From a bacterium (GTDB taxonomy: Bacteria; Hinthialibacterota; Hinthialibacteria; OLB16), in NCBI GenBank assembly GCA_022072055.1, contig JAJVIK010000001.1, positions 62,001-126,000 on the forward strand: 64,000 bases of DNA, written 5' to 3'. Each line of letters begins with the position of its first letter. Within the stretch, counting starts at the first letter, position 1. Shown here piece after piece: positions 848 to 24,174 of this stretch. The position numbers and the translations under genes were made by a program. A model generated the notes under the pieces. It did no database searches, was not told the origin of the DNA, and saw only the letters and a list, made by a program, of their open reading frames with translations.

Positions 848-984
848 GCCCTTGCCCTGCCCTTTTGGTCGGAGTCACCGAGCCGACTGACCTATTCTGG
901 TACTCTTCTACCAGTATACGCCACTGGGGTGGGAGAAACAAGGGTGTGGGGAACGAGTTGGGCGGTGAGGGAAGGACTTTCGTC

Positions 985-3900: not shown

Positions 3901-6882
3901 CGCATCCACCAACAGAGCGCGGATGCCGTTTTCGCCGCTATTGAGAGTGAGGCCGCCAACCCGCGCGGGAGCGGCGTTCCCACTGCCCAGGGCCATCTTG
4001 ACCAGCCTGCCGGGACTGCTCTCCGTTCCGAAATACCCGTACCCATTGGTTGTGTCGAGTGCTACTCGGCGGAGGCTGTTCTCACCGGCGCTGACAGCCG
4101 TGGCCCCCACGCGCTTGAAGGGGTAGATGGACTCGATATCCAGTTTCACAACCCTCCCGGGCGTTGTGTAAGTCCCCAAGTATGCGTAGTGGTTGTCGGC
4201 GTCGATCAGCACCCCCCAGAGGCGGTTTTCGCCACTGTTCAAAGTGACCGCGCCCACGCGCGTGGGCGGATTTGATCCGACGCCCAAAGCCACCTTGATC
4301 ATTACGCCGGGAGATGTGTCGGTTCCAAAGTATGCGGTACTATTGGTCCGGTCGAGAACTGCCCCTACCAGTGAGTTTTCGCCGCTGTTAAACGTCAAAG
4401 CCCCCACCCGCGTAGGGGGATTGCTTCCACTCCCCAAGGCCACCTTCACCACCCTCCCGGGAGTAGTGTTTGTTCCGAAGTAAGCGTAACCGGCAGTCGA
4501 GTCGATCACCACGCTTGTCAGGTCATCCTCTCCTGAATTGAGGGTCACGGCCCCGATGCGCTGGAAGGACCTCGATGGATTAATGTCCACCTTCACGACG
4601 ACCCCCGGAGCGATTCCAGCTCCATCATTTGTTCCAAAATACACATACCCGTTCGACGGGTCGATCGCACCGCACCAGAGGCTATTTTCCCCCGCGTTCA
4701 GCGTGATCGCGCCCACCCGCGTCGGCGGGTTGCTCCCGCTCCCCAGGGCCACTTTCACGACAATTCCCGGAGCGGTATTCGTGCCGAAATAGGCGTAGCT
4801 GTTGGCGGAGTCGATCACGGCGCTCCAGGGACCATTCTCTCCGCTGTTTAGTGTTACCGCGCCGACTCGCGTGGGCGGATTCGCCCCGCTTCCCAAACCG
4901 ATTTTGACCACGCGGCCCGGAGTTGTGTTGGTTCCAAAATAAGCATAACCAGCCGAGGGGTCGATCACCCCGCAATTGAGGTTGTTTTCGCCTGTGTTGA
5001 GCATCACGGCCCCCACGCGGGTTGGGGGGTGACTCCCATCCCCCAGATCAACCTTAACCACCTGGCCCGGAGAGGTCCAGGTTCCGAAATAAGCATACCC
5101 GTTGGCTGAGTCCACCACGGCACTTTGGAAATTGTTTTCTCCACTCTGCGCGCTTATCGCGCTATGCCGCCGAGGGAGGTCCGGCTGGCCGAGGGAGACT
5201 TTGACCACTTGACCAGGGTTGGTGAGTGTCCCGAAATAGGCGTAGCCAGCAGATGGGTCAATCACAGCTGAAACGAGGTTATCCTCTGGCCAAACCGTGG
5301 CGGTTACTGAGCCCGCGATGGAGGGTGGCGCTACGCCGCCTCCCAGGGCAACTTTGACTACCAGCTCTGGATTTCCGTAATAGGTTCCAAAATACGCGTA
5401 TCCTGCGCCTGGATCAATAGCAGCACACCAAAAGCCATATCCGTATGGACCAGGAGGATGAGTTGCGGCGCCAATGCGCTGAAATGTACGACTTGGCGAA
5501 ATGTCAAGCTTGACCACTTGTGGTGAATATGTATCCGTTCCGAAATAGGCATAGCCGTTGACAGTATCGATCAGCGCACATCTGAGAGCATCCTCCCCCG
5601 GATTCAATGCGACCGACCCAACCCGCGAGGGAGGATCGCTGCCTTGACCTAAGGCCACCTTCACCACGATCCCGGGTGAGGTGTCCGTCCCAAAATAGGC
5701 GTAGCCATTCGCCGGATCGATAGCGCCGCACAGGAGAGAGTCCTCACCCGCATTGAGCGTCACGGCGCCCACACGGGTGGGAGGGTTACTCCCGCTGCCC
5801 AAGGCCACCTTCACCACGATCCCTGGGCTGGTCCACGTCCCAAAATAGGCGTAGCCGTTGGCTGTGTCGATCACAGCGCTCCAGAGATAGTTCTCGCCCG
5901 AATTCAGGGTCACCGCGCCCACACGGGTGGGAGGGTTACTCCCGCTGCCCAAGGCCACCTTCACCACGATCCCCGGGCTGGTGACCGTTCCGAAATAGGC
6001 GTAGCCGTTGGCTGTGTCGATCACCGCGCTCTCGAGACCGCTCTCGCCCGAATTCAGGGTCACCGCTCCCACACGGGTGGGGGGGGTGCTGCCGGACCCC
6101 AAGGCCACCTTCACCACGATCCCCGTACCAGTCCACGTCCCGAAATAGGCGTACCCGTTGGCTGTGTCGATCACCGCGCTCCGGAGACCAGATTCACCTG
6201 AACTCAGGCTCGCAGCACTCGCACGCCCGAACTGATTCGTGGGATACGAGTCACTCCCCACATTGCTATTCCCCGCCGCAGGGTCCGAAAAAGAGAGCGA
6301 GTGGTCCGTGAAGGTGTGGCCGCCTTTGTCCGTGACGCGCAGGGTGATGGGGTAAACCTTTTCCTCCAGGTCGTGCGCGGTCCAATCGGCGCTGTACATG
6401 CCGAGAGTGCCCAGCGCGTTGACCCCGCCGCTGTTCATCGGCGCGGGCTTCAATTCAACCGTTTCGATTCCGCCCAAGTCGGCCTCCACTTTCGCCACAC
6501 CCGCTTGCGCCTTCACAATGACCGAGAGCGAAAGCTTCTCGCCGTTCTTCACCGAGGGCGAGGAGAGCGTGGGAATGATGTGGATTCTGCCATCGCCTGC
6601 GCCGATGACCTCACCGGCGCGTGAGTCCGCTGTGGCGGATGATTCGCCCTCGGCCGCGACTGCCGCCGCGCGCGCGGCGGACATGCGCGAACTCAGGTCC
6701 GCCGCAAGGCCCTCCGCGGCGCCCGCATTCACGGCCCAGGCCCAGGCCAGGAGCGCGAAGATCAGCGCCGCGCGAACAACGACCCATGTGTGGGATCCGC
6801 ATGCGGCGAAAGTTGAGACGTACGGTTTTCCAGGCGAGTCATGCAGTCGGGTACTCATGGTGGCGCAACCCTCCCAAAGCAA
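985..6882 (-). CDS. Giant secreted repeat protein: signal peptide, 21 propeller-type repeats, jelly-roll-like domain, about 4 PKD domains, Thr/Pro-rich tail
   Basis: 1965-aa ORF; repeat consensus [50 protein letters not shown]; PKD motifs (VSYEWDFGDGN, VTFDGSASY); tail [11 protein letters not shown]-terminus [10 protein letters not shown]. Confidence 0.85.
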   Translation of the reverse strand: MLWEGCATMSTRLHDSPGKPYVSTFAACGSHTWVVVRAALIFALLAWAWAVNAGAAEGLAADLSSRMSAARAAAVAAEGESSATADSRAGEVIGAGDGRIHIIPTLSSPSVKNGEKLSLSVIVKAQAGVAKVEADLGGIETVELKPAPMNSGGVNALGTLGMYSADWTAHDLEEKVYPITLRVTDKGGHTFTDHSLSFSDPAAGNSNVGSDSYPTNQFGRASAASLSSGESGLRSAVIDTANGYAYFGTWTGTGIVVKVALGSGSTPPTRVGAVTLNSGESGLESAVIDTANGYAYFGTVTSPGIVVKVALGSGSNPPTRVGAVTLNSGENYLWSAVIDTANGYAYFGTWTSPGIVVKVALGSGSNPPTRVGAVTLNAGEDSLLCGAIDPANGYAYFGTDTSPGIVVKVALGQGSDPPSRVGSVALNPGEDALRCALIDTVNGYAYFGTDTYSPQVVKLDISPSRTFQRIGAATHPPGPYGYGFWCAAIDPGAGYAYFGTYYGNPELVVKVALGGGVAPPSIAGSVTATVWPEDNLVSAVIDPSAGYAYFGTLTNPGQVVKVSLGQPDLPRRHSAISAQSGENNFQSAVVDSANGYAYFGTWTSPGQVVKVDLGDGSHPPTRVGAVMLNTGENNLNCGVIDPSAGYAYFGTNTTPGRVVKIGLGSGANPPTRVGAVTLNSGENGPWSAVIDSANSYAYFGTNTAPGIVVKVALGSGSNPPTRVGAITLNAGENSLWCGAIDPSNGYVYFGTNDGAGIAPGVVVKVDINPSRSFQRIGAVTLNSGEDDLTSVVIDSTAGYAYFGTNTTPGRVVKVALGSGSNPPTRVGALTFNSGENSLVGAVLDRTNSTAYFGTDTSPGVMIKVALGVGSNPPTRVGAVTLNSGENRLWGVLIDADNHYAYLGTYTTPGRVVKLDIESIYPFKRVGATAVSAGENSLRRVALDTTNGYGYFGTESSPGRLVKMALGSGNAAPARVGGLTLNSGENGIRALLVDAANGYAYLGTYTSPARVVKVALGSGGNLPTRVGALTLNSGENNIMSGIIDTVNGNAYFGTATTPGRVVKVALGAGVALPTRIGAVTLNTGEDLLQCGVIGSFGGYAYGFFGTYTSPGRIVKVSLGAGAAAPTRLGALTLNSGEDYLSSAAYDMITDHAFFGANTAPGQIVKVNCGSTVDSVPSRVGSLTLNTGEDMLRGAVVDGVNGCAYFGTDTTPGQVVKVGMNPLSRLGAVVLGPEESELWTGGIDEYHGFLYFGSGTLLDPGRVVKVSLSHKHYIKATTMTLAEDGDLTDVRFYSHKNAGNLRLAIYDDNEPRNLLWQSGSIANTANGAWLTEPISNGTPSSLILTTGDYWLAYLTDSTADVPSYTDGAYGQGFFSNQIYGSFPSSISLAGSRFSSEMWSEYVAYDYPGPTPPVAAFTAHPNPAPCQVNVTFDGSASYHPDPARHIVSYEWDFGDGNTGSGAVVNHAYSAFGAYTTTLTVTDDSVPPLVDSVTHTVTVNQGNHSPVASHGGPYAGVINSPISLNGSASSDPDAACGDHVVSWEWTIAGGAVSLVGATPTLTAAQVNALGLGTHAVALLVTDTLGATGSASTSLTIYGDTPVAILTSPSTVTCGQTVTFDGSASYHQNPALQIVSYEWSFGDGETYTETSVLAPDGVFDGRTTHTYSAAATYLAALTVRDNHVPPQSAMDTDNVTVLMTNVPPIADAGGPYFICVGDPLTLDGSGSYDPNEGCGDSIVSWQWDINNDGTYDCAGCNASVPWSVLAAFGTGTRTILLRVADEFGFTDTGTTTLTISDPTTTPSPTATETQTSISTHTPTNTVTATPTNINTPTITQTPSPTITRTPTITQTPSPTITRTPTITRTPSPTITRTPTITRTPTPTLTQIPTVTRTQTPTVTATPTITRTPSATPSPSITATPSNTVTNTPTETPTVTSTVTATATETVTATPTSTPTPTEEEPLAVEDWEFY
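1255..1410 (-). repeat. 42-bp tandem repeat (14-aa unit TPTIT[QR]TPSPTITR) in the Thr/Pro tail
   Basis: Unit ggggttcgagtgatggtgggggtgcgggtaatcgtgggcgaa is iterated with small changes. Confidence 0.75.
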
Positions 6883-7134: not shown

Positions 7135-10100
7135 TCAATAGAATTCCCAATCCTCGACCGCGAGGGGGTCTTCCTCGGTGGGTGTGGGGGTTTCCGGTGG
7201 GGTCTCGGTTTCAGTCGCCGTGGGTGTCGCTGTGACGGTTTCCGTGACCGTGGCGGTGGGGGTCAGGGTCACGGTTGAGGTAACGGTCGGGGTTACTGTG
7301 GGGGTGTTGGTCACCGTGTTTGACGGCGTTGCTGTGATACTGGGCGAGGGAGTCGCGCTGGGTGTTTGAGTCACCGTGCGCGTGGGTGTCCTGGTGATGG
7401 TCGGTGTGTGGCTTGGAACCGGGGTGTGAGTGGAAGTCGCGCTCGGGGTCCGAGTGATCGTCGGGGTGGCGGTCACCGTCGGGGTCTGGGTGCGGGTGAC
7501 GGTCGGGATTTGTGTGAGGGTGGGTGTCGGGGTTCGAGTGATGGTGGGGGTGCGCGTGATCGTGGGCGAAGGGGTACGGGTGGCTGTTGGAATTGAGATT
7601 GTCAGCGTTGTGCTTTCCGAATCTGTGCTGCCGAATTCATCCGTGACCAGAAGTGTGACCGCAAACGTTCCAATCCCAAGTCCATCAATTTGGGCCGCAG
7701 TGAGGGTTGGACTGCTGCCACTCAGGGAAATACTCTCCCCAACATTCCACGTCCACGCCACGATGGAGTCGCCACACCCCACATTCGGGTCTGAAGACCC
7801 CTGTCCATTCAGCGTTCGACCGTTCCCTATGGTTGTATAATATGGCCCACCGGCACTTGCCGTGGGCGCAATATTCCCTTGGTTAGTCAGGACTGTGTGC
7901 GTGACCGAATCGACAAGGGGCGGCACCGAGTTGTCTGTTACCGTAAGCACGGCATCGTAGCTGCCGTAGGCGCTATAGGCATGGTTCGCGATTGAACCCC
8001 AAGCAACATCCCCGTCTCCAAAATTCCACGCGTAACTCGTGATTACGCGATCGGGTCTCCCATGGCTGGTGGTTCTTCCGTCAAATGTAATCTGCTGACC
8101 ACAGGCGGCAGGATTCGGGCTCATATTGAAGTTTGCGGTAACCACACAGTTGTAAACAGTAAGGGTCGTAAATCCTTGTGAAGTCGCTCCGTATGAGTCC
8201 TGGACCCTCAAACGCAGGGAGTAGGTTTGCGGAGCTAATCCTAGTGCGGTGAGATCTACAGAAACTATCTCACCGGACGCATCATTGGTCCCATCCCCGT
8301 TTAAGTCCCAGTCCCACGCGACAATTGCGTCGCCAAAAGCTGCGTCGGGATCGTAGGACGCTGAGCCATTAAGCACAAACGCGGTATCATTTGAGCAAGG
8401 CCTATACGGCCCGCCAGGTTGCGCAACTGGTGGCTGGTTCGCATGTGTGGGCGTGGAGGTAACCGTCGGCGTCAATGTAGTCGTAACTGTCGGCGTTTGA
8501 GTCACGGTTGAGGTCGGGGTCACGGTCGGTGTCACCGTGTTGGTGGCGGTGGGCGTAACCGTCGCCGTGGGCGTGGCGGGATAATCATAAGTGATGTACT
8601 CGCTCCACATCTCCGAGGAGAATCGGCTGGCCGCCAGGCTGAGGGTGGAGGGGAACGCCGCAAATGGTTGACCGAAGTAGAAGCCTTCCCCATAACTCCC
8701 CTCGGTGTAGCTCGGGACCGACTGGGTGCTATCCGTCTGATACGCCAGCCAGTAATCCCCAGCTGAGAGGAACAGCGAGGAGGGGGTACCGTTTGAAATC
8801 AACTCGGTCAACCAAGCCCCGTTCGCGGTGTTTGCAATGGACCCGGACTGCCAGAGGAGATTCATCGGCTCGTCCTTGTCGTAGATCGCGAGTCGCAGAT
8901 TGCCCGCATTGGTGTGTGAATAGAAGCGAACATCGGTGAGCACACCGCTTTCGGGCATGGTCATGGAGGTGGCCTTGACATAGTTCTGCTGTGAGGTGAA
9001 GTAAATGGACTCCAAGTCGAGTTTGATGACCCGGCCCGGCGCGGTGTGAGTTCCGCAATAGCCATAGGCATTGGCGGTGTCGATAATCGTGCTGTAAACC
9101 TCGTTCTCGCCCGATTCCAGGGTCAAGGCTCCAACCCGCGTGGGGAGCGCCGAACCGGTCCCCAGCTTGACCTTGACAACCTTAGCGGGGCTGGTGATGG
9201 TCGTGAAATAAGCGACCCCCTCCGCGGGGTCAATCATCGCGCCGCCAAGGGAATCCTCCCCGGAGTCGAGTGTGAGCGTCCCGATCCGTTGAAATGTACC
9301 AGAGGGGTTGGTTTCGATCTTCACCACCTTTCCGGGAAAGGTTGCCGTTCCGAAGTAAGCATACCCGGCAGCCGTGTCGATCACCGCGGCGGCGAATTCC
9401 TCCTCGCCGGAGTTGAGAGTAATCGCTCCGACACGGGTGGGCGCGGAGCCCCCGTTTAACGCAACCTTCACAATCTTGCCGGGGGAGGCGAAGAAAGTCC
9501 CAAAATACGCGTAGCCCCCGGAGGGGTCGATGACCGCCGAGTAGGGGTTGTTTTCGCCGGAGTTTAGGGTCACCGCCCCAACTCGTGTCGGTGGATTGGA
9601 GCCACTGCCCAGCGCCACCTTCACGACTCGGCCGGGCGCGGTCCCGGTGGTGAAATAGGCGTACCCAGCGCTCGAGTCGATGACGCTTCGTTTGAGATAG
9701 TTTTCTCCCGAGTTGAGAGTCAGCGCCCCGACTCGCTGGAAGGTCCGCGAAGGATGAGTGTCCACCTTAATCACGCGACCGGGAATTGTGTCGGTTCCGA
9801 TGTAGGCGTAACCAGTGGTTGTATCGCGCGAGATGCATGTGGGATTATTTTCACCGGAGTCCAGCGCGATGCTTCCGACCCGAGCGGGAGCCTCGTTTCC
9901 ATTCCCTAGGTCGACTTTGATGATCTTCCCTGGGCTACCGGTGTTGTTCAGGAAGTACCCGTAACCATTGACCGTATCAATGGCGGCGTTGAGGGAGAAA
10001 TGGTCTTCTCCACTGTCACCCGTGATTGCGCTATGTCGCCGCGGCAGGTCCGACTGGCCGAGGGAGACTTTGACCACCTGGCCGGGATTTGTATAGGTCC

Positions 10101-11736
10101 CAAAATAGGCATAGCCATTGTTGGAGTCGATCACAGCGGAATGGAGAATATTCTCCGCGCTGTCCAATGTCACCGCACTCACCCGCGAGGGCGCATTGGT
10201 TCCCGATCCCAGAGACAACTTCACAACCCTTCCGGGGCTTGTATAGGTTCCAAAGTATGCGTACCCCGCAGCGGCATCGATGACCGCACTCCGGAGGTCA
10301 TTCTCTAGACTACTCAGCGTTACTGCCCCCACGCGTGTAGGAGAATTCGTCCCCGAACCTAGTGCAACCTTCACCACGATTGCAGGCCACACGTTAAACG
10401 TCCCGAAATAGGCGTATCCCGCAGCCGCGTCGATCACTGCGCTCCGGAGCTCGTTCTCCCCGCTGTTAAGAGACACCGCCCCAATCCGGGTCGGCGAATT
10501 ACTGCCACTCCCCAACGCCACCTTCGCCACTCGTCCGGGGCTGGTACCCGTCCCGAAGTAAGCGTAGTTGTTGGCGGTATCGATCACCGCACTTGTGAGG
10601 GGGCCCTCCCCGCTGTTCAAGGTTAGCGCGCCCACACGTGTCGGGAGATTGCTGCCGGACCCTAGAGCTACCTTGATGACAATCCCGGCCGCAAAGGTAA
10701 ATGTCCCGAAGTAGGCGTAGCCGTTGGCGGTGTCAATCACCGCGCTTGTAAGATTATTCTCCCCGCTGTTCAATGTTACAGACCCTACACGCGTGGGGGG
10801 ATTATTGCTTGAACCCAATGCGACCTTTACGACAATTCCCGGAGTGGAATTCGTCCCGAAGTAAGCATACCCGGCAGCCGTATCAATCACGGCGCTCGTT
10901 AGATCATTCTCCCCGGTCCCCAAAGTCACTGCTCCGACTCGCATGGGGGGAACGCTTTCCGAACCTAAGGCTATTTTTATGACGATCCCCGGGCTCGTAT
11001 ACGTCCCGAAATAGGCGTATCCCGCAGCCGTGTCGATCACCGCGCTGCGCAGTCCCTGCTCGTTTGCTCCGAAGGTATAGGTCTTTCCAACTCGCTGAAT
11101 CGAGTCGGAAGGATACACCGTACTCCCCACACTGCTGTTCCCTGCCGCGGGGTCGGAGAAGGATAGCGAGCGGTCGGTGAACTTGTGGCCCTCCTTGTCG
11201 GTGACACGCAGGGTGATGGCGTAAACCTTTTCCGCCAGGTCATGCGCGGTCCATTCGGCGCTGTACATGCCCAGAGTGCCCAGGGCGTTCACTCCGCCCG
11301 TGTTCAACGGCGCGGGCTTCAATTCAACCGTTTCGATTCCGCCCAAGTCGGCCTCCACTTTCGCCACACCCGCTAGCGCCTTCACAATCACGGACAGCGA
11401 AAACTTCTCGCCGTTCTTCACCGAGGGCGAAGAGAGCGTCGGGATGATGTGGATTCTGCCATCGCCGTGGCCGATGACCGCGCCCGCGCTCTGATTTGAA
11501 CCTGGCACGGAATCCACCGGCGCAAGGGCCACGACATTCGCGGCCGCAAAGCGCGCGCTCAGGTCATTTGCGGGGCAGTCGATGGCCTCCACCGCAGCGA
11601 CCCAAGCCACGAGGAAGAGGACCGGCGCGATGGGAAACAGCCAACGTGCTCGGATGACCGAGGCTGAGCATGGAGTGATTGGGACCTGGTTGAATCGGGA
11701 GGTGATGGAGCGGTGATGGGAGCGGGCGAACGCCAT
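7135..11736 (-). CDS. Giant secreted repeat protein, paralog of 985..6882: 14 propeller-type repeats, about 3 PKD domains, Thr/Pro-rich linkers
   Basis: 1533-aa ORF; same N-terminal domain ([21 protein letters not shown]), same repeat, same C-terminus [10 protein letters not shown]. Confidence 0.85.
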
Positions 11737-11827: not shown

Positions 11828-12589
11828 CTACACCCGCGCGGCTTGAAGTTGGGGGTCATGCAATCGGATCTCACGGCCGGTTGGGTTCCCCGAGGCGTAC
11901 AGCGCCAGGTCCACATTGCCCTTGAGGCTCAGCTTCTCGAGGATCCGGCGGCGGTAGGTGCTCACCGTGGTCACGCTCAGGCAGAGCTCCTCCGCGATCT
12001 CCGCTTGGCGTTTGCCCAAGGTAATCCCCCTGAAAACCTGGTATTCCCGTTCCGAAAGGGTGTCGATCGGGGTCGCGCGGGTGACCGATTCCCGGAGGGC
12101 CAACGCCTCCGCCACAGTCTCATGAAGATAGCGCCCACCGGATAGCAGCCGCTCGACCGCGGTTCGGAGTTCCCCCGGCTCGCCGTTGCTGGGAAACACC
12201 CCGCCTGCCCCCGCGCGAAGCGCCCAGACCCCATCCAACACGAACTTTGTGTCGAAAAGAAACATCAGACCTCTGCTGGGACACTCCCGGTGAATTCGCT
12301 CGATACACCCCAGCGGACTGCAGTTGGGGCAGCTGGAGTCCAGGATGAGACAGGCCCAGTCCGTCTCGCTGACCTGCTTGAGGGCGCAAGGTCGAAGGGG
12401 ACCCTTTCCGTTGGCGTGGAAGGATGGGATGCCTTCGAGCGCTGCCTGGACCCCCAGCGCGAGCAGCGGGGACCCTACCGCGATGGCCACGCGGGAAGGT
12501 GGCGCGGGACGGCTAGGGGAACCGGCCTGGGAAACCTGCGGCATTCCAGCGCCGTTTGAGGAATAGTGAATATGAAGGGGTGTTCGCAT
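11828..12589 (-). CDS. LuxR/NarL-type transcriptional regulator with atypical receiver-like N-terminus
   Basis: C-terminal LSEREYQVFRGITLGKRQAEIAEELCLSVTTVSTYRRRILEKLSLKGNVDLALYA is a LuxR HTH; the receiver-like part keeps LILDSS but lacks the N-terminal acidic pair. Confidence 0.8.
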   Translation of the reverse strand: MRTPLHIHYSSNGAGMPQVSQAGSPSRPAPPSRVAIAVGSPLLALGVQAALEGIPSFHANGKGPLRPCALKQVSETDWACLILDSSCPNCSPLGCIERIHRECPSRGLMFLFDTKFVLDGVWALRAGAGGVFPSNGEPGELRTAVERLLSGGRYLHETVAEALALRESVTRATPIDTLSEREYQVFRGITLGKRQAEIAEELCLSVTTVSTYRRRILEKLSLKGNVDLALYASGNPTGREIRLHDPQLQAARV

Positions 12590-12713: not shown

Positions 12714-13445
12714 ATGCATCAATCCGCCTCACTTCCAGAGTCTCGGAAGCTTGACCCGCCCGGATTGAACGTTTCAGCGGCCTCTGGAACAATCGCGGAG
12801 ATCATGCCGGAACTCCCATCCAATCCCCCTCCATCGGATGAGTGGCTCCGTGAACAACTCCTCCAGTCCCCAGAGGAGGGGTGGAGCCAGTTTTGGAGGG
12901 TCCATGGCCCCTTCGTCGAACGAATTGTGGGTCGATTCCAACTCCGCAAGGAGGACCGTGAGGAGGTCCTTCAAGAAGTCTCCCACGCCCTGGTCAAGGA
13001 GAATTTCAAGGTGCTCCGCGAGTGGAACCCGGAGCGCTGCTCCCTTCGCGGATTCCTTTCGGTGATCGTGGCCCGGAACGTGATCAGCTTCTTCCGCTCG
13101 GGCTTTCATTCCTATAACGCCCGCAAGTCTTCGTTGCCGAGCGAGGGGGTCTCCCCCGAGGGGTTCTCGCTCTTGCTGGAGGATTCGGCCAACACCCCGG
13201 CGGAACGTTTGCACCGCATCGAGCTGGTTCGCTCGCTGCTCAAACTTCTGGACGACTGGGTCGCGCAACACCAAATCAGCGCCACGGATCGAATGCTGGT
13301 CCTGCTTCGCTTGCGTGGAATGACTTTCACCCAGATCTCCAACGCGCTCGGGATCTCGCGCAGTTCGGCCACGGTCCGGTTCACACGGATCAAGCCGTTC
13401 CTGAAAAGGCGTTTCGAGGAAGAGGGGTTCTCTCCCCAGGATTAG
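12714..13445 (+). CDS. RNA polymerase sigma factor, ECF-like
   Basis: Region 2 FVERIVGRFQLRKEDREEVLQEVSHALVKE..FRGFLSVIVARNVISFFRS; region 4 RMLVLLRLRGMTFTQISNALGISRSSATVRFTRIKPFLKRR. The true start may be the internal Met near 12804. Confidence 0.8.
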   Translation: MHQSASLPESRKLDPPGLNVSAASGTIAEIMPELPSNPPPSDEWLREQLLQSPEEGWSQFWRVHGPFVERIVGRFQLRKEDREEVLQEVSHALVKENFKVLREWNPERCSLRGFLSVIVARNVISFFRSGFHSYNARKSSLPSEGVSPEGFSLLLEDSANTPAERLHRIELVRSLLKLLDDWVAQHQISATDRMLVLLRLRGMTFTQISNALGISRSSATVRFTRIKPFLKRRFEEEGFSPQD

Positions 13446-13453: not shown

Positions 13454-16400
13454 TCACTCCAGGCCGACAAGGCGCACCCCTTGGGCCTCCCATTCGGCGA
13501 GCACCGCCACATCACGTTTCGCCATCGGGGTGGAATGGATGTCGACCTCAAGCGGTTTGAGAGGATTTCCTCCAACCAGGGGCGACAGATCGGAGACCTG
13601 GGTCCCGTGAAGGTTGACTCTCCGGAGGTTCCGGAGGTTTCGGAGTGGGGAAACATCCTTGACCGGGTTGTCCTGAAGCGAGAGTTCACGGAGGGCTTGC
13701 AGCGGGGCGAGCGCCGAGAGATCTTCAATTCCCGTCCGGTCCAGATCCAGCCAGTTCAGGTTCTCCAAGGCCGCCAGGGTTTCCCGGTCCGGGGCGGGAG
13801 AGTCCATCAGGCTGAGGCGCTCCAACTCCCGGAGGTTGCGGAGGGGGCGGATGTCCGCCACCCGGTTTATGCCGAGGATCAGCCTTTTGAGGTGGACCAG
13901 GGTCGCCAACGGCCCGATATCCGAAAAGCCGCAATTCGCCAGGTTCAATCCGCGGAGATGGGTCAGTTCGGAGAGCGGCGCAAGGTCACGCACCGGATTC
14001 GAGGACAATTCAAGGACAACGAGATTTGACAGTTCCGAGAGGGGGTCGAGATCCTCAATCAGGTTGCCGTCGAGGTGCAGATGCTCAAGTTCGGTCAGAC
14101 CCGCAAGCGCGGAAACGTCTCTGATCCCGGCCCGGTTGGCGAGCAGGTGCGCGAGCTGCTTGAGGTTCCGCAGGGGTCCGAGGGACTCCACCTCGCAGCC
14201 TTCGAGGCCAAGGTGCAAGAGGCCGGACATTCTCGCGAGCGGAGATAGGTCGCGAACGTTGGTCTTGCTCAGGGTCAGGGAGGTCAGACCCTCGAGGCTC
14301 GCAAGGGTTTCCGGGGCGAGGAGGCTGGAGCGAGTGAGGTCAAGTCGAGTCAGCAGCGGCAGCCGCGCGAGCGGAGTCAGATTCCCGAGCGTGGAATCCA
14401 GGATGCAAAGGTCCGCGAGGTTCGGAAAGCACGAGAGTTGATCCAAGGGAGGGCCATTCGCCGCGGCAAGCCTGAGTCTCGACACGCGCTCAAGGTCCGA
14501 GGGAAGAAGCGGGCCATCTTGAATCTCCAAGATCGCGCGCGCTGCTTGCTCCCAGATCGGGTCCAGACCCGCCGGAACGGGCGGAGGGCTGCATTCTTCA
14601 GCGGTTCGGCGCTTGAGCTTCCAAAAGGACCGCTTGTATTCCTCTATCCGCGCCTCAGGAGAGGACCCGGCCGAGCTCGCATAGGCCGTGTTCAGCCAGG
14701 GGAAGGCAGGCCACAGACGAATCGTGCGGTCGATGCTCCCGCTTACGAGCGCGGGCGCGCTCGGCGAATAAGACAGGCAAGTCGCCGGCCTTGAGTGTCC
14801 CCTCAGGGTCAGCAGCTCCCGGCCCGTGGAGGCTTCCCAGACCTTACAGGTGGTGTCCTCCGAGGCGGTGAACAACCGGCTCCCATCGGGCGAATAGCAG
14901 ATCTGGTGAATGTACGCGTTGTGCCCCAAGAGTTTGAAAAGGGTCCGCCCGCCGTCGCGGTCCCAGACACGCCCGGTTTCATCATCGCTTCCACTGGCGA
15001 GCCTTTCCCCGTCGGGGCTGAAGGCCACGCTCTTGACCGCGTCCGTGTGTCCTTCAAGAGTCCTGAGGAGGGTTCCCTCGCGCGCATCCCAGACTCGGAC
15101 CAGGTTCTCACGGTCCCCGGTGGCCAAGAGAGCGCTATCGGGAGACCAAGCCACCCCGCACACCTCTTCTTGAGAAGCGCGCCAGTCTCTTTCAACGGTC
15201 CCGTCGGGCAGGCTCCAAATAACCACTCTTCCGTCGCGGTCTCCGGTCGCGAAATGCTTTCCATCCGGAGCGTAAGCGAAGCCCTTGGCCTCATTCAGGG
15301 GACCTCCCACGATTCGCGCAACCTGGTTTGATCCGCCGCGCCAAATGGCAACGGAGTCCCCATCCGTCACGGCCAGGACTCTGCCATCCGGCGAAAACTG
15401 TCCTCCATTCGCCCCGGTCAGGTGGCCCAAACGAGGCTCGGTGTTCTCCCAGGTTCCCAGCCAAAGCCCACGCACGAGGGGATCGGCATGCCCTCCCCCA
15501 ACGACCCAATCCTCCTTGGGGTTGGCGGCCACGAAGTGGACCTCGTCGGTTTGACGAAGGACGGGAGAAGGCTGAAAGTTCGGGGAGACATCCCAAAGCC
15601 TGCAAGAGCCGTCATCCCCTCCGCTGGCCAGGAGGTTTCCATCGGGGCTGAACGCCACGGCGCGAACCGAGTTCACGTGACCTTCAAGCAGACGCTCCTC
15701 CAGGCCGGTTTCCAGGTCCCACAGCCTGATGATTCCCTCAAGGGAGGGAGCGGCGATTCGCTTTCCATCCGGGGAGAACGCCACGGACCAAACCTGTCGT
15801 TTGTGGCCCTCCAGGGTCTTTACCAGCGCTTCATGCCTCCAGTCCCAGACGCGAACCACCCGATCTTGGTTCCCTGTGGCAATCAGGCGGCCATCGGGAC
15901 TGAACTCCAAGGCATAGATGTCCTGGCGGGGATTGGGCATGGTGTGAAGGAGCTCTCCAGTGGTGGCATCCCACACCCGCAGCGAGCAATCGCAGTCCCC
16001 CGGTTGCCCTCCACCGGTGGCCAGGACTGTTCCGTCCGGACTGAAGCCCACGGCATACACAATGTCCTGAGGGAGCCGCACCACGGTCAAAAGCTCTCCC
16101 GAGCTCACATCCCAGACCGAGGCGCTGGAGTTGGTCTGGCCCGCCACAATCCGGCTCCCATCGGAGCTGAAACGGAGCGCTCGAAACTCACCGCGGATGC
16201 GTGTGAATCTTCGAATCATTCGCCCTTCGGAGAGGCTCCAAAGTCGGATGGTCCCATCCTCCCCTCCAGCCGCCACCAGCTCCCCGGAGGGGCTGATTGC
16301 CAAGCCATGGACAGGCCCCCGACACCCTTCAAGACGCGCGACTTCCGCCCCGCTCAGGATGTCCCACGCCCGGACTGTCCCCTCCATGTCTCCGGTAAAC

Positions 16401-19363
16401 ACCCAGTTCCCCTTCGGATGAAAGGCAACCGCGCGGACCGCGCCCGGGCTAACTCTCAGGGTCATGAGGTCCTGATTGCATAGGAAGAGAAGTCGCCCCC
16501 ACTCCCAGTTTCTGAGGATGGGGGGCGCGCTCATCAGGAATTCGAGCGCCGGACCGAAGCGGCGGTCCTCAACCGCGCGCTCGGCCAGCTTGATGGTGGA
16601 GACATAAAGCTCCTCCTCCGCCTGTGCGCGCGCCGCCCGCGCCTCGATGACCGCCCGACGCTCCCGGACCAATCCGTAACCCAAGGCCACGGTCAGCAGG
16701 CAAACGCCAAGGAATATGAGGGATAGGAACACCAAGGCGCGCCTGTGTCTTTCTCGTTTGCGGTGAGCCTCTTCCATCGCGAGCCAGCTCGCGCGGCGCT
16801 CCTCCACGGACCTGAGACTCCTCGCAAGCTCCCCGGCGCTTGAGAAACGCTCCTGGGGATCTCCCGCGAGACACCGCTCCAGGTCCTTCCGCAGGATCGG
16901 ATCCTCGATGTCCGAGCGCCAATCGGCGGTCAGGGGACGCCTGAAATCCCCAATGAGCAGTTGATAAAGCACAACACCCAAGGAGTAGATGTCCGAACGG
17001 ATGGAGGAGGCCCTTCCGACGAGCAACTCGGGCGCCATGTAGAGGCGGCTCCCGGTGTGAGAAACGAATTCCGTCGGAGTGAAGGTCTGAGTGAACCCCC
17101 CGAGCGGAGAGTCCGGGAGAATCTGTGGGTCGATGACTTGGCCGATTCCGAAATCACCGAGTTTGACTCGGAGGTTCTTCAGTTCGGCCAGGCTCCCCAC
17201 AAGGAGAATGTTGGAGGGTTTGACATCGCGGTGAATCACCCCGGCGTCATGCGCCACCTGGAGTGCATCCGCCACCTTGGCCACAATCTCAAGGCGCGAC
17301 TGCTGGGGATGGGCAAGCGGGTCGCCCTCGACAAAATAATGTTCCAAATCGCTCCCGGGGACATCCTCCATGACAATGTAGTAAGGGGGGTGGTCGAGGA
17401 AGATGTCGTACAGGCGGACAATATTGGGGTGGTCTCCGACCGCCTCGCGCAGGAGCCGGAAGAGGGAGATCTCACGTTTAAGGGAGCGGACACGCTCCTC
17501 CCGGAAACAGAACTTGAAGACCCGTTGCTCCCCAATCTCCTTGCGTCTTGCCCGCCAGACCTCCCCGAATCCTCCCTCTCCGAGCTTTTCGACGAGCACC
17601 CAAGCGGGAGAGGTGGGGACCTCCTGATCCAGGGCGGGCCGCCACCCGAGAACCGGCTCCTGATCCCGAGAGACATGCCGGTACGCAAACTCCAAGTCCG
17701 GAGGGGGTGAAAGGGCGGCCCACCCAATCTCCCCCACTTCACAGACATCCACTGTCTGATCCAGGTCCGCGAACTTGTACGCGCCATGGTCGAGCCAAGC
17801 CACGGAGCAATCGGGCGCGATTTCACTCCCACGGAGCACGGCGCGCGCATCATCGAAGGTGGGGCGCGAGATCAGGATCTGGCGATCTGTCGCAAGCGAT
17901 AGGAGGCTTCTCCCGACTTCGAGCGGATACCCTTCGACGGACTCAAGGGCGCCGCCGCGCAAGGTTCGAACGGTTGTGATCTCTCCAGAGTGAACGGCGA
18001 CGCGCGGGGCCGACCGGGAGTCCCCCAGCGGGTCTTCGGAGCGAATCTTCCACTGCAACATGAGCGCGAATCGGACGGCATCCGAAGCGCGTGGCAGGAT
18101 GGCCAGGAACGTCCGGTCTTCCACCTTGAGGGTCTCCGCCCCCGAAAAGGAGCTCAGGAGGCTTTCGGCTTCTTTCGACGGAAACGGGGAGGGGTGAGAG
18201 GCGGAATTGCGTGGCGGCTCCGAGGAGAGGAGCACGAGGGCCTTGGTTTCCGTCCTGATTGTCCCGCCCGAGGGCAACCCGGTCGCCGGGTTCCCAAACA
18301 GAACATACTGCGCCCAGGAGAAGTCCGCCGCTCCCAAGGAGGCGCGTGTTTCCAACCTCGCGGAGCGGAGAGCGGATCCCACGGAGGCGCCCTCAAGCAG
18401 CGCTCGATAAAAGGCCCTGGCCATGAAGGTTGCCGCGTCATCTCGGACCTCTCGCCAGGCTCCGATGTAGTGGCTTGTCCCGGCGCTCAAAAAAGTCTCG
18501 GCCATTCCCCGAAAACCTTCGTCTAGAAGGCGGGGGCCGGCTTGGTCCGCGCCATGACAGGCATTGTTGAACACCAGTAGGGGGCCGGGGTCATTGCCAA
18601 GGGCTTTCTTGACCCAATCGGGGTCGAGGACCCCATCCTGGAGTTCCCATCCTCCTGTTCGACCGGTTGGGGCTGAGGTGTGACCGGAATAGTGGACCAG
18701 ATCGGCACGCGGGAGAGACTCGACCAGGTCTGGTTTTGAAACGCGCCCATTCAAAAGCAACAGTGCAATATGGATATTGTTTTCCAATAATGCGCAAAGG
18801 TTTGCCCCCTCGCGCGCCGCCCCGGCCAGATTCCCGGCGGGATCGGAGACCAGGAGAAAGGCAAGATGTGAATTCCGCGGCTCCCGAATGCGGCCGGAGC
18901 GCCATGCGGGGACCACCCTTCCCACGGCATAACGGCAGCCGAGGAAATCCACTCCGTCATGAAGCAATTCCCAGGGGAATTGGAGCCACCGTGGCTCCAA
19001 CTCAAGCGAAAGAAATTCGCCCGGGTGGCAATGCAACTCGCGTTGAATCTCGGATGGGAAGACTGACTGAAAGCCATGCCGCGTCAAACTCTCGATGGAT
19101 TCGGATCCGTTCCGAGATTGACCCCAGAGCGTGGTGTCGCCGATGGCCTCCCGCAATTGAGCGCCGAGATCCGCGATCCCCTCCTCGTTCAGCGCCGAGA
19201 CTCCCGCGGCGAGGCTTTCCGAACGCGGAGACAGGAGCCGGAATTCCACGCCGTCCGCGGTCTTGGTGACACGCAGGGTGAGGGGGGCGTCAGGAATCCC
19301 GCTCGGGTTTGTCATGATTCTTGACGAGGACCGACTCTTTGTAGTGCCGGACGTCACCGACAA
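13454..19363 (-). CDS. Multidomain signalling protein: CHAT caspase-like domain, class III cyclase-homology domain, Ser/Thr kinase, TM, 14 WD40 repeats, LRRs
   Basis: CHAT His/Cys motifs VHYSGHT and FNNACHGA; CHD-like GYPLEVGRSLLSLATDRQILISRPTFDDAR..WLDHGAYKF; kinase GEGGFGEVW, FKFC, HRDVKPSN, DFG, LYMAPE; TM ALVFLSLIFLGVCLLTVALGYGLV; WD40 units VAFSPDG..LASGSDD..RVWD; LRR units LxxLxxLxLxxNxIxDLxPL. Confidence 0.88.
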   Translation of the reverse strand: MSVTSGTTKSRSSSRIMTNPSGIPDAPLTLRVTKTADGVEFRLLSPRSESLAAGVSALNEEGIADLGAQLREAIGDTTLWGQSRNGSESIESLTRHGFQSVFPSEIQRELHCHPGEFLSLELEPRWLQFPWELLHDGVDFLGCRYAVGRVVPAWRSGRIREPRNSHLAFLLVSDPAGNLAGAAREGANLCALLENNIHIALLLLNGRVSKPDLVESLPRADLVHYSGHTSAPTGRTGGWELQDGVLDPDWVKKALGNDPGPLLVFNNACHGADQAGPRLLDEGFRGMAETFLSAGTSHYIGAWREVRDDAATFMARAFYRALLEGASVGSALRSARLETRASLGAADFSWAQYVLFGNPATGLPSGGTIRTETKALVLLSSEPPRNSASHPSPFPSKEAESLLSSFSGAETLKVEDRTFLAILPRASDAVRFALMLQWKIRSEDPLGDSRSAPRVAVHSGEITTVRTLRGGALESVEGYPLEVGRSLLSLATDRQILISRPTFDDARAVLRGSEIAPDCSVAWLDHGAYKFADLDQTVDVCEVGEIGWAALSPPPDLEFAYRHVSRDQEPVLGWRPALDQEVPTSPAWVLVEKLGEGGFGEVWRARRKEIGEQRVFKFCFREERVRSLKREISLFRLLREAVGDHPNIVRLYDIFLDHPPYYIVMEDVPGSDLEHYFVEGDPLAHPQQSRLEIVAKVADALQVAHDAGVIHRDVKPSNILLVGSLAELKNLRVKLGDFGIGQVIDPQILPDSPLGGFTQTFTPTEFVSHTGSRLYMAPELLVGRASSIRSDIYSLGVVLYQLLIGDFRRPLTADWRSDIEDPILRKDLERCLAGDPQERFSSAGELARSLRSVEERRASWLAMEEAHRKRERHRRALVFLSLIFLGVCLLTVALGYGLVRERRAVIEARAARAQAEEELYVSTIKLAERAVEDRRFGPALEFLMSAPPILRNWEWGRLLFLCNQDLMTLRVSPGAVRAVAFHPKGNWVFTGDMEGTVRAWDILSGAEVARLEGCRGPVHGLAISPSGELVAAGGEDGTIRLWSLSEGRMIRRFTRIRGEFRALRFSSDGSRIVAGQTNSSASVWDVSSGELLTVVRLPQDIVYAVGFSPDGTVLATGGGQPGDCDCSLRVWDATTGELLHTMPNPRQDIYALEFSPDGRLIATGNQDRVVRVWDWRHEALVKTLEGHKRQVWSVAFSPDGKRIAAPSLEGIIRLWDLETGLEERLLEGHVNSVRAVAFSPDGNLLASGGDDGSCRLWDVSPNFQPSPVLRQTDEVHFVAANPKEDWVVGGGHADPLVRGLWLGTWENTEPRLGHLTGANGGQFSPDGRVLAVTDGDSVAIWRGGSNQVARIVGGPLNEAKGFAYAPDGKHFATGDRDGRVVIWSLPDGTVERDWRASQEEVCGVAWSPDSALLATGDRENLVRVWDAREGTLLRTLEGHTDAVKSVAFSPDGERLASGSDDETGRVWDRDGGRTLFKLLGHNAYIHQICYSPDGSRLFTASEDTTCKVWEASTGRELLTLRGHSRPATCLSYSPSAPALVSGSIDRTIRLWPAFPWLNTAYASSAGSSPEARIEEYKRSFWKLKRRTAEECSPPPVPAGLDPIWEQAARAILEIQDGPLLPSDLERVSRLRLAAANGPPLDQLSCFPNLADLCILDSTLGNLTPLARLPLLTRLDLTRSSLLAPETLASLEGLTSLTLSKTNVRDLSPLARMSGLLHLGLEGCEVESLGPLRNLKQLAHLLANRAGIRDVSALAGLTELEHLHLDGNLIEDLDPLSELSNLVVLELSSNPVRDLAPLSELTHLRGLNLANCGFSDIGPLATLVHLKRLILGINRVADIRPLRNLRELERLSLMDSPAPDRETLAALENLNWLDLDRTGIEDLSALAPLQALRELSLQDNPVKDVSPLRNLRNLRRVNLHGTQVSDLSPLVGGNPLKPLEVDIHSTPMAKRDVAVLAEWEAQGVRLVGLE

Positions 19364-19468: not shown

Positions 19469-20731
19469 TCACCGCAGAAGAGAGAACAGATCCTCCCAAA
19501 GCTCCGCGGTCCGTCGCACCTCATCCCTCCGCGGCCTTCGAGAGATGTCCATTTCGGCGAGATGGGCGGCGAGTCGGCTTGCCAAGGCAAGCCCGAAGCA
19601 ATCCTCCTCCCCAAGCGAGGCGGAGGAGAACTGCTCACAGGCAAGTCCAAAGTTCTGATCGGCCAGCCGGCTCCATCCCAGCAGGGAGGCTCGCGCCAAT
19701 TGGAAGTCCCCCACGCTCAAGTCCAGCTCTGAAATCCGACCGAGGATGTCTTGAGCGGATAAGTCGCCGGAGGTTGATATGGATACAAGATTCTCCTCAA
19801 GGCAAGAGTCGTCCTCCGCTTTTAGCGCGCGAACTCCCTCCAAGGTGGAGGCCATGGCCTCCACACGTTTTTCATGCGGCAAGGCGGCGCCACGAACCAC
19901 GGGGAGCGGTTTCAGGACAAACCCATCCGCTTGGGCGACCACGGATAGGCCCCTGAGAAAATTCCGAAAGCGGCCAGTGAGACGCTCCTGATCGAAGACC
20001 GGCCGCCCGGGATCGGAGAGCAGGCCTATCGCTTCTCGGAAACGGCCCTCCAGGCACAGGGCCGCGAGCAGCGCGCGCCACTCAGCCGGTCCGAACTCCA
20101 CCTCCTCGACAAGGACTTCCAGACCGGCATCCGAGTCGCCGGTGCGAATCGACATGCCAATATTCGGCTCAACCTCGACAGGTGTGCTGAGCGCTTCGCT
20201 ACTCCACGGAAACCGTCGAACCAGGATCCCCCGCGACCAAATCTCCAAATGGGCCTTGGAGCTGTTGGCAACCTCGCCCTCCACCGAAAGGAGTGTCCGC
20301 CCTTGATTTCTCTCCAGGCGAACTCGTAAACAGTCTCCCGAGGGAGGGCAATGCATGCACGCCACTCGTCCCGCGCAGACTGACAAGTTCTTGCGGCCGG
20401 TCAGTTTCCCCACCCAGTCCAGCAGGTGACTGAACTCCGGGGTGAAGTGAATGGAGTCGAGCGCGAGCACCCGGAGGTAGTCCGAATGGATCCCCACTTT
20501 GAGCGTGGCCTGGATCGAAAAAGGCAAATCCAGGTTGTTCACCTCCTGAAGCTCCGGAAGGCTCAGCAAGGCAAACACTTCACTAGAATCCTCGCCGCTT
20601 GGGTCCAAGCCCACTTCCGTGAACATCAAGGGATCATTCCCGGCGGACAAGAGGCGAGCCAGCTCATCCCTGATCGGTTTTGTGGCGCTCACAAGCTTCC
20701 CTCCGATTTCTCCTCCATCATATTCCACCAC
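19469..20731 (-). CDS. Hypothetical 420-aa protein, co-directional and immediately upstream of the CHAT-kinase gene
   Basis: Long ORF on the same strand as its neighbours, 105-bp gap to the next gene; no family recognised. Confidence 0.7.
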   Translation of the reverse strand: MVEYDGGEIGGKLVSATKPIRDELARLLSAGNDPLMFTEVGLDPSGEDSSEVFALLSLPELQEVNNLDLPFSIQATLKVGIHSDYLRVLALDSIHFTPEFSHLLDWVGKLTGRKNLSVCAGRVACMHCPPSGDCLRVRLERNQGRTLLSVEGEVANSSKAHLEIWSRGILVRRFPWSSEALSTPVEVEPNIGMSIRTGDSDAGLEVLVEEVEFGPAEWRALLAALCLEGRFREAIGLLSDPGRPVFDQERLTGRFRNFLRGLSVVAQADGFVLKPLPVVRGAALPHEKRVEAMASTLEGVRALKAEDDSCLEENLVSISTSGDLSAQDILGRISELDLSVGDFQLARASLLGWSRLADQNFGLACEQFSSASLGEEDCFGLALASRLAAHLAEMDISRRPRRDEVRRTAELWEDLFSLLR

Positions 20732-21499: not shown

Positions 21500-23371
21500 C
21501 TACACTGAGTTGCTTACGCCGATTTCCACCAGCGCAAGCAGGAAACAGAGCGCGAGAATCGCGGCGGTCCAATCATGGAGGGTCGAAGGAAGATTTTCAA
21601 TCTCCCCGATAAACTCATCCGCGTCCATCGAGTGGACGCCCCGTTCAGCCAGCAGTTCCCGTTCCGCCTCCGAAAGGGAGCGAAGATCGGATTCCCGAAT
21701 GGGGATCCCACCGGCGGCCTCCCGGTTCGTAAGGGCGTTCGGATCGATGAGCGTGCGTTTCACCATCTGGGAGAGAAGGGGCACCCATCCCGGAGAGAGC
21801 ACCAATCCAGTCTCCGATGGGGAAAGCGGAACGGTCCACGCGACGACTGTTCCGGCCCCGAACCGGCGCGTTTGGAAGAGCGGGAGCTCCTCGCCGAAAT
21901 CCGAGCGCGCGAGCCACTCATCGCTCCAGCCCGCGAGAGGGAAGGCCCGAAACCCTTGCTCCGCCCAGTCGGCGGCGCGCGCCGCGGAATCGAGCGCGGA
22001 ATCAAACCAAGGCTGCGCGCCAGCGATCAAGGAGATCGCCCCAGCCGGCGCGCGGACTTCACGCGAGACACACTCCCAGGCATTCCACCAATCCGACCAA
22101 GCTTGAGGTTGGGCTCCCACCGGCGCGCCTTCGATCAGGACTAGAAGACCCTCCCCACCCTCCACGCGGGCGCGCAGAAGACGCGTCCATTCCGGCGACA
22201 CAGCTTTCTCTCCGATCAGCAAAACAGCCGTGGCTTCAAGGCCGCCCTCGCTGGGAGGGGGCCCGCTCGGATCGGCCCCCTCGACCTCGAATGCTGATAG
22301 CGCGGCCTGGAGCAGGTGACGCCATTCCGGATCGGCGGCCAGAACCTGAAGGCGCGCCCCCTTGAGTGTCTTGGGAACCACGATCCGTTCATCATCGGCG
22401 CTGAGCGAGTCTTGCTCCCCTCGCGGGAACTCCAGCGCGGCGGTCACCGTGCGGATTCCCGGTGGAACCAGAGCCGAAGCGCCCAAAGCCAGTGGGGCGC
22501 TTCCGGACGCCGAGATCGGAACCTCCGCGCCAAAAGTTTTCCCCTCGCTGTCGACCCAACCATATCGGAGTCCGCGCGGGCGATCATCCGACTCTCCACT
22601 CCCCTGGAACGCCTCGGCGGAAACAGTAAGCAGGGCCGGTTCGCTCTCAAACAAGGGCTCGTTGCGGACGTCGAGCTCGGAAAGCGCCCAGTTCCCACCC
22701 GTCCAGGTCTCTCCGACAAGGAGCGCGCGCACCGGGATGGGGTGGGGACGCCCTTCCTCGGTGAGATTCCAATTGGAGGCGGTTCGGTCGGTCAGGACCC
22801 AGAGCGCCGCCCCCGGTCTCATTCCCGCCGCCACCCGTTTGAGCAGAGGTTGGATCGGCTGAGAAAACTCAAGACGACTTCGGGAGGCAACCCGTTCGGC
22901 AAGGGTTTCCCGGTCGGAGATTGAGAGTGAAAGGGGGTCCGCCTCCCGGTCGACGTCACTGGCGAGAACCACGCTCCAGTTCCCACCGCGCGCCTCCAGG
23001 ACACGGTCGGCGATGCCGACCGCGCGCTCGAACACGGACAGTCCGGCGGAGTCTTTCACCTCCAGCGAAACCGAGTCGTCCAGCAGCAGCACGTTTTCAA
23101 ATCCAAGCGCGGGAGTTTCTGGGGATGAAGAGGTGCGGGTGGAGGGGCCCGCGAAGGCCAGCGCGAGCAGCAACAGCACCAACATGCGCAAGATCATCAG
23201 AAGCTGATCCTGTATCCGAAGATGGAAGCGCTGCTGCATCGCGGCCTTTTTGAGGAAGCGGAAGGTGGGCAGTTCGAGCACTCGGACCCGCCTCCTGCGA
23301 ATCAGGTGCAGCAACACCGGTAGCGCGGCAAATCCGGCAAGGGCAAGGAGAAGCGGTTCGAGAAAGCTCAT
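21500..23371 (-). CDS. BatA N-terminal domain-containing membrane protein
   Basis: MSFLEPLLLALAGFAALPVLLHLIRRRRVRVLELPTFRFLKKA...LMILRMLVLLLLALAFAGP; the start is chosen at the ATG overlapping the upstream stop (ATGA). Confidence 0.8.
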   Translation of the reverse strand: MSFLEPLLLALAGFAALPVLLHLIRRRRVRVLELPTFRFLKKAAMQQRFHLRIQDQLLMILRMLVLLLLALAFAGPSTRTSSSPETPALGFENVLLLDDSVSLEVKDSAGLSVFERAVGIADRVLEARGGNWSVVLASDVDREADPLSLSISDRETLAERVASRSRLEFSQPIQPLLKRVAAGMRPGAALWVLTDRTASNWNLTEEGRPHPIPVRALLVGETWTGGNWALSELDVRNEPLFESEPALLTVSAEAFQGSGESDDRPRGLRYGWVDSEGKTFGAEVPISASGSAPLALGASALVPPGIRTVTAALEFPRGEQDSLSADDERIVVPKTLKGARLQVLAADPEWRHLLQAALSAFEVEGADPSGPPPSEGGLEATAVLLIGEKAVSPEWTRLLRARVEGGEGLLVLIEGAPVGAQPQAWSDWWNAWECVSREVRAPAGAISLIAGAQPWFDSALDSAARAADWAEQGFRAFPLAGWSDEWLARSDFGEELPLFQTRRFGAGTVVAWTVPLSPSETGLVLSPGWVPLLSQMVKRTLIDPNALTNREAAGGIPIRESDLRSLSEAERELLAERGVHSMDADEFIGEIENLPSTLHDWTAAILALCFLLALVEIGVSNSV

Positions 23372-24174
23372 GCGCCCGCGCGAATCGACTCTGGGGTTTG
23401 CTGGTAGGGATCGCGCCACTCATCGAGGAGGATGAGCAGCGAAAGGACCGAAAGTGCGGCAAACACCCCCGGAAGGACCAGCAGTAGCGGCGGGGCTTGC
23501 AGGCACAAGACCGCGAAAAGCGCCTGAATCCCAAAAATGAAGGCTGTTCGGAATGGCTTCCACAGCGCCACCATCGCCGAGCGCTTGAGCGCAACCCAGA
23601 AGGGGCGCTTCTGATGAACCAAGAACGGCCCCAGGTGAACTTGAACCATGCCCAGGAAAAGCCCCATCCAGAGAGTCACCGCCATGCCGAGCATGCGGAC
23701 CAACGGCCATTGCGGAAACATCCGCGGATAGATGGCGAGATTGAACGCCAGGACTCCAAACCCGAAACCGAGAACCAGCAGAGTGGTGAGCGCGGGGATT
23801 GGGAAACGAAGAAGCCCCGTGGGGAGGTCGGACCAAGCCGGATACTGAAAGGAGAGAATCAGGTCGAAGTAACCGAGCACCGCGAACCAAGCCATCACGG
23901 AGACGGATAGTCCGCACAGGGCCAGGACAATCTGGAGTACCACGGTCGAAGTGGGCGCGCTCCCCGGGGTTGGGAGATGGGACCCGACAAGCGCCAAGGG
24001 GGCGAAGGCCGCGAACAGGATCGCGATCAGGAAGGCTCCGCACAACACGGCTGCTCCGAGCTCATCGTAGGCCTGGCGAAGCCACTGCTTGAGCAAATAC
24101 CCAAGCGAGTGGTTCCCCTTTCCGCGACTCGCGATTTGATGGAGTTCTCCCTGTGTCATTTCAAGTAACGGCAT
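23368..24174 (-). CDS. Multi-pass membrane protein of unknown function
   Basis: Several hydrophobic segments (AAVLCGAFLIAILFAAFAPLALVG, LALCGLSVSVMAWFAVLGYFDLIL); coupled to the next gene. Confidence 0.7.
   Translation of the reverse strand: MPLLEMTQGELHQIASRGKGNHSLGYLLKQWLRQAYDELGAAVLCGAFLIAILFAAFAPLALVGSHLPTPGSAPTSTVVLQIVLALCGLSVSVMAWFAVLGYFDLILSFQYPAWSDLPTGLLRFPIPALTTLLVLGFGFGVLAFNLAIYPRMFPQWPLVRMLGMAVTLWMGLFLGMVQVHLGPFLVHQKRPFWVALKRSAMVALWKPFRTAFIFGIQALFAVLCLQAPPLLLVLPGVFAALSVLSLLILLDEWRDPYQQTPESIRAGA

Follow-up and report, generated by a model that had tools for sequence, protein, structure and literature searches.

A transmembrane CHAT protease-kinase fusion encoded beside an ECF sigma factor and its predicted inhibitor: a candidate CRISPR-free counterpart of Craspase signaling in Hinthialibacteria

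Classical proteolytic release of sigma factors involves membrane proteases that act on membrane-bound anti-sigma factors, as with RseA and RsiW. Cleavage of a sigma inhibitor by a CHAT protease has to date been seen mostly in rare CRISPR systems. The described case is the type III-E Craspase, where Csx30, which inhibits the ECF factor CASP-sigma, is cleaved by Csx29 (PMC10028731). A type III CRISPR relay has also been described for CalpL/CalpT/CalpS, from a Lon protease through an anti-sigma factor to an ECF sigma factor (PMC11417357). Moreover, in Myxococcus xanthus, DdvS is the cognate ECF sigma factor of DdvA, which keeps it inactive (PMC4374960) and which PDB entry 8rot names a transmembrane anti-sigma factor. 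ECF54 sigma factors have CHAT and subtilase neighbors, and proteolytic control has been proposed for them with no anti-sigma factor described (PMC8999054). Caspase-ECF neighborhoods have likewise been noted (PMC8195603).

Here, we analyzed a 64,000-nucleotide stretch of contig JAJVIK010000001.1 from a bacterium of the Hinthialibacteria OLB16 (the window), which encodes on its minus strand a 1969-aa protein (13454..19363) with the domain order CHAT, cyclase-homology domain (CHD), Ser/Thr kinase (STK), transmembrane segment (TM), WD40 repeats, and leucine-rich repeats (LRR). The first-pass annotation had read this as one uninterrupted fusion with an intact CHAT His/Cys pair, a CHD-like domain, complete kinase motifs, one TM, 14 WD40 repeats, and an LRR array, and every element of that description was recovered by the analyses given below. 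The ORF is intact and opens with a TTG at 19363; the sole Met near the N terminus is residue 17, and its ATG at 19315 is the likelier start. CHAT and LRR were found by separate Pfam scans of the N-terminal 540 aa and of the LRR part, WD40 families dominating the whole-protein listing. Since the catalytic residues of both CHAT and kinase are invariant in all six same-genome paralogs (6/6), the giant fusion is neither a chance product nor an assembly artifact.

The CHAT caspase-like protease domain occupies residues 90-362 (18278..19096, minus strand) and matches Pfam CHAT (PF12770) at 2.3e-20, with 73.7 bits against a cut-off of 24; Peptidase_C25 also matches the N-terminal part of the protein (1e-5). 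Its catalytic His228 (HYSGH; 18680..18682, minus strand) and Cys269 (NNACHG; 18557..18559, minus strand) are invariant in the six paralogs and across 13 CHATs drawn from several phyla. When residues 17-604, covering the CHAT and CHD part, were modeled with AlphaFold (mean pLDDT, 80), the best Foldseek match in the PDB was Csx29/TPR-CHAT (7y84; 2.5e-9), with further matches to separases, DdvA (8rot), and adenylyl cyclases.

The CHD follows at residues 366-560 (17684..18268, minus strand). Pfam did not detect it in the giant protein, and its profile matched class III cyclases in the PDB, with Ma1120 at 5.5e-14 and the match beginning past the N-terminal metal-site strand; together with the Foldseek cyclase matches, this places the domain in the class III cyclase fold. 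The GD motif is absent and the metal-site Asp positions are lost in all six paralogs, the window's included, and this loss makes the CHD a pseudo-cyclase, which, judging from its sequence, is probably inactive as a cyclase. The Hanks-type Ser/Thr kinase (residues 575-859; 16787..17641, minus strand; Pfam Pkinase, 1.9e-38) retains catalytic Lys617, Asp713, and Asp737, and its motifs GEGGFGEVW at 595, HRDVKPSN at 711, DFG at 737, and APE at 777 are intact, so that the VAIK Lys, HRD, and DFG elements are complete within a Pkinase fold.

A single transmembrane helix (residues 876-894; 16682..16738, minus strand; hydropathy, 2.82) lies directly C-terminal of the kinase, a position common to all six kinase paralogs. 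Positive charge is denser on its N-terminal side, and from this charge distribution CHAT and kinase would be cytoplasmic and the WD40/LRR part extracytoplasmic. The WD40 array (residues 960-1555; 14699..16486, minus strand; Pfam WD40, 3e-111) has a spacing of ~42 residues and comprises 14 units, 12 recognized by a strict motif, one (at 997) by a looser motif, and a degenerate one located in an 84-residue gap of the array; they probably form two propellers. The internalin-type LRR array (residues 1640-1945; 13529..14446, minus strand; Pfam LRR_4, 6.8e-39) has a 22-residue period and about 13 units. The tails of the paralogs differ from this one, being Laminin-G-like in L014, with similar sequence in L011 and L012, of another type in L013, and lacking in L009. 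Consequently, the C terminus is best seen as a variable sensor of which the LRR is not a constant part. The architecture proposed in the first-pass annotation, a membrane-anchored kinase and protease with C-terminal sensor arrays and no detected STAND NTPase, thus holds, and the arrays may gate the protease.

Two neighboring genes are central to the interpretation of this locus. An ECF sigma factor gene (12714..13445, plus strand) is convergent with the giant gene, with 8 bp between their ends; being on opposite strands, the two do not form one operon. The window sigma factor matches TIGR02937 at 7.4e-11, just under the cut-off, while its paralog in L013 is over it (4e-16), and it also matches ECF sigma structures in the PDB. 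The acidic residues of region 2.2 (EDREEVLQEV and similar) are kept in six of the seven sigma factors of this clade in the genome, the seventh not being read by the motif search, and a phosphomimic as in ECF43 is therefore not needed. On the other side of the giant gene lies the gene for a soluble partner of ~430 aa, a predicted anti-sigma factor (19469..20731, minus strand), with a degenerate zf-HC2-like N terminus, a middle beta region, and a helical C terminus.

Other genes surround these three. A LuxR/GacA-type response-regulator-like gene (11828-12589, minus strand) is divergent from the sigma gene, and a BatA-type aerotolerance gene (21500-23419, minus strand) lies just past the module. 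Two large PKD-domain proteins (985-6882 and 7135-11736, minus strand) cluster by similarity with large sigma-adjacent genes from other loci, encoding a beta-helix protein (L009) and a subtilase (L010), and are possible regulon members. A search upstream of the 21 module genes for a common -35/-10 dyad found no shared promoter motif, the matches not exceeding those in shuffled sequence.

The association of these genes is strict across the source draft genome (5.86 Mb), which holds eight CHAT ORFs. Six are CHAT-CHD-STK-TM-WD40 proteins, including that of the window, to which the other five show 34-36% identity. A seventh clade member is a CHD-CHAT-TM protein with a CsgG domain (C6:30626, locus L010), and the eighth is an unrelated TPR-CHAT with neither the clade sigma nor the 430-aa gene beside it. 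A profile of the ECF sigma factor found exactly seven members of this clade (224-336 bits; next best, 35 bits), a profile of the 430-aa protein found exactly seven copies, and all of these sigma and 430-aa genes are accounted for by the seven CHAT loci, the seventh 430-aa gene, on C6, belonging to L010. The same genome also encodes a CHD-STK protein lacking CHAT (L133, 7058-11011) that resembles those of Verrucomicrobia and Planctomycetota.

The triad of sigma factor, 430-aa protein, and CHAT protein recurs in genomes of the same family, at the two loci of OLB16 and at one of G002 (L122, L123, and L125). In L041 and L074, the CHAT-STK genes of Hinthialibacteria OLB16 are broken across several frames, via frameshift or assembly error. 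A genome of the same class but a different family (G004, locus L127) carries a partner whose N terminus is intermediate between the 430-aa and zf-HC2 types; its separate STK-CHAT-TM-TPR-CsgG fusion (836-4378) has a different domain order and its own sigma and 430-aa-like genes. In other phyla, CHATs of the clade occur with an ECF sigma factor and a soluble protein of ~215-305 aa bearing a zf-HC2 zinc motif (L132, L159, L161, L163, L167, L170, L160, and L169), and L168 has the anti-sigma gene with the sigma factor not detected. Pfam confirmed the zf-HC2 assignment in 4/4 middle genes tested. The usual gene order there is sigma, anti-sigma, CHAT, and all three are on one strand in L132, L159, L161, and L160. 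According to the listed kinship, the genomes G052, G275, G198, G146, and G282 lie outside the class and phylum of the window; among the genomes searched, three belong to the phylum of G052 and ten to that of G275, with G198, G146, and G282 outside both. Thus, the triad is present in at least four phyla.

Furthermore, we examined 13 additional strong-clade CHAT loci that had not contributed to building the sigma, anti-sigma, and CHAT models. The full triad was present in 7/13 (L204-L207, L211, L213, and L214); in L212 the anti-sigma gene was accompanied by a sigma match of just 14 bits; L215, at a contig edge, showed the anti-sigma gene alone; L216 begins at such an edge; and L208-L210 had neither gene. 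All 13 belong either to G275's phylum or to G198's family and, as both were represented in training, they are new loci rather than new phyla. Among 13 weakly related CHAT loci there was no anti-sigma gene and one weak sigma match, and 20 control stretches contained no triad genes. Within the clade, CHATs lacking the triad were found at L124, L128, L162, L165/L166, L097, and L208-L210, the last three being probably one orthologous set with neither sigma nor anti-sigma beside CHAT. The clade CHAT protein of L209 has a CHD with seemingly intact cyclase motifs. One TM is present in almost all clade CHAT proteins, immediately C-terminal to CHAT or following the kinase. L162, L168, and L165 are among the exceptions, and the L170 protein has its TM ahead of CHAT. 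On the CHAT-domain tree, the triad is clustered with gains or losses (9 changes versus a shuffled mean of 12.2), and thus the tree does not demonstrate a single origin. Related genes also recur near CHD-CHAT-TM genes at seven loci (L010, L126, L128, L130, L159, L161, and L164), represented in L126 by an OmpP1/FadL-like outer-membrane barrel adjoining a TPR protein, which suggests a role at the envelope.

The 430-aa protein is probably an anti-sigma factor, because it takes the place of the zf-HC2 anti-sigma genes found elsewhere and has an N terminus similar to theirs, though degenerate. At the sequence level this resemblance is modest. By hhalign, the 430-aa and zf-HC2 N termini align with P=1.2e-4 and a probability of 55%, against 0.3 and 0.64 in control comparisons, while the probability is 2.7% over the full length. 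The HxxxCxxC zinc ligands are absent from the 430-aa copies of the window's family, the window copy having one of the most diverged N termini, and the C-terminal beta region shows no similarity to its counterpart in the zf-HC2 proteins. None of 13 430-aa or anti-sigma proteins tested has a TM. The 430-aa protein gave no match in Pfam (searched with the window's copy), NCBIfam, or PADLOC. The best E value of the 430-aa profile against PDB sequences, a collection that includes the Csx30-bearing complex 8eey, was 0.12, with no anti-sigma or Csx30 match, and a poor AlphaFold model (three rows; pLDDT, 57) gave no fold match (best Foldseek E, 0.1).

Compared with the described systems, the locus is closest to the type III-E Craspase, in which a CHAT protease is also encoded with an ECF sigma factor and a sigma inhibitor (predicted here) and whose Csx29 gave the best fold match. 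It differs from Craspase in having no CRISPR-type array repeats in 23 module loci, in lacking TPR and presumably being activated by membrane receptor domains instead of a guide RNA, and in a 430-aa protein whose sequence matches none of the PDB chains, Csx30 included. The likeness to DdvA/DdvS, in sequence and fold, lies in an ECF sigma factor held off by a CHAT-domain membrane protein. However, DdvA is itself named the transmembrane anti-sigma factor, whereas here the predicted anti-sigma is soluble and encoded separately from CHAT, and no kinase, WD40, or LRR is known in the DdvA system. CalpL/CalpT/CalpS has the same protease-anti-sigma-sigma logic, but CalpL is a Lon rather than a CHAT protease, is activated by cA4, and has no membrane receptor. 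ECF54 shares the CHAT neighbors and, unlike this locus, is described without an anti-sigma factor. STK-regulated ECFs (ECF43 EcfP/PknT and EcfK/PknS) likewise have a kinase beside the sigma factor, yet ECF43 lacks both the acidic region 2.2 motif and an anti-sigma factor, while the window sigma clade keeps the acidic residues. Finally, CHD-STK proteins of Verrucomicrobia, Planctomycetota, and Acidobacteriota have the same CHD and kinase core (35-47% identity), although the match covers the CHD-kinase part only and not CHAT.

With seven CHAT proteins each encoded beside a sigma factor and a probable inhibitor, the module most likely conveys an outside signal to gene expression through cleavage of the inhibitor. 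From sequence, structure models, and analogy, we give a probability of roughly 60% to a transmembrane receptor protease, also a kinase, that cleaves or otherwise inactivates the predicted anti-sigma factor and frees the ECF sigma factor, following the logic of Craspase outside CRISPR. The extracytoplasmic WD40/LRR part of this one-pass receptor would sense a ligand, and its cytoplasmic part would carry two outputs, the CHAT cysteine protease and the Ser/Thr kinase, linked by the inactive CHD. At rest, the 430-aa protein would hold the sigma factor. Upon stimulus, the kinase domains would be activated and the CHAT protease would cut the 430-aa inhibitor or license its breakdown, and the freed sigma factor would transcribe a response regulon. 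The kinase might regulate the protease, or it might mark the anti-sigma factor. By analogy with Csx30, the 430-aa protein is a putative CHAT substrate; the order of kinase before protease and the nature of the regulon are likewise conjectural.

The invariant kinase motifs of the six paralogs could also mean that the kinase is the working output, phosphorylating the anti-sigma or sigma factor, with CHAT acting as a dock or scaffold that retains its partner uncut. ECF-kinase pairs such as EcfP/PknT and EcfK/PknS are established and PknB frees sigma factors by phosphorylating an anti-sigma (PMC8999054), and the separate STK-CHAT fusion of G004 has its own sigma gene. Nevertheless, we consider this reading unlikely, as the CHAT His/Cys pair is invariant even in triads lacking a kinase (L010, L132, L159, and L161), the constant part of the triad is CHAT and not the kinase, and the sigma factor retains acidic region 2.2 residues that ECF43 lacks. 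A strictly conserved catalytic pair, which a pure scaffold would not need, also weighs against a CHAT protein that belongs to an anti-sigma complex like DdvA and signals by conformational change only. The match to DdvA (8rot) in both fold and sequence and the requirement of DdvA inactivation for DdvS activity (PMC4374960) point in that direction, but the anti-sigma here is a separate soluble gene, and such a mechanism seems improbable.

The first-pass annotation had drawn an analogy to STAND/NLR-type defense and cell-death proteins, in which the protease would kill the cell on phage sensing under the regulation of the sigma factor and its partner. CHAT proteases do occur in bacterial immune systems, including type III-E CRISPR, and WD40/LRR arrays resemble immune sensors. 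Against this, the modules show no STAND NTPase, gasdermin, or other toxic effector and, as noted, no CRISPR-type repeats, and an anchored transmembrane receptor with an anti-sigma neighbor fits envelope signaling better. No NACHT/NB-ARC NTPase was found by Pfam in the N-terminal 540 aa or among the 25 of 53 whole-protein families listed. The PADLOC matches listed were generic; PD-T4-6, mad6, and similar entries covered the kinase region and the others the WD40 region, and no defense neighbor was found. The analogy was consequently abandoned, and we regard a role in defense as improbable.

Inhibitor cleavage by a transmembrane receptor protease is thus the preferred reading, and it invites a broader but more tentative one, to which we assign slightly less than even odds. 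Widespread, CRISPR-independent transmembrane receptor caspases with exchangeable envelope or outside sensors would cut soluble anti-sigma factors, the Craspase triad would be an offshoot recruited by CRISPR, and the kinase-WD40-LRR architecture would be a lineage-specific elaboration. We found no description of a sigma/zf-HC2 anti-sigma/CHAT triad outside CRISPR in the literature searched, from which subscription papers were mostly absent. The puzzling type III-E CRISPR triad of Csx29, Csx30, and CASP-sigma may have its origin in such loci, which also provide a CRISPR-free setting for testing caspase-like control of transcription. If the proposed mechanism is true, the kinase fusion would link phosphorylation and proteolysis, the two main controls of ECF sigma factors, in one polypeptide; and, with receptor and protease being one protein and the anti-sigma factor soluble, an outside signal would reach transcription by a simpler, one-step route.
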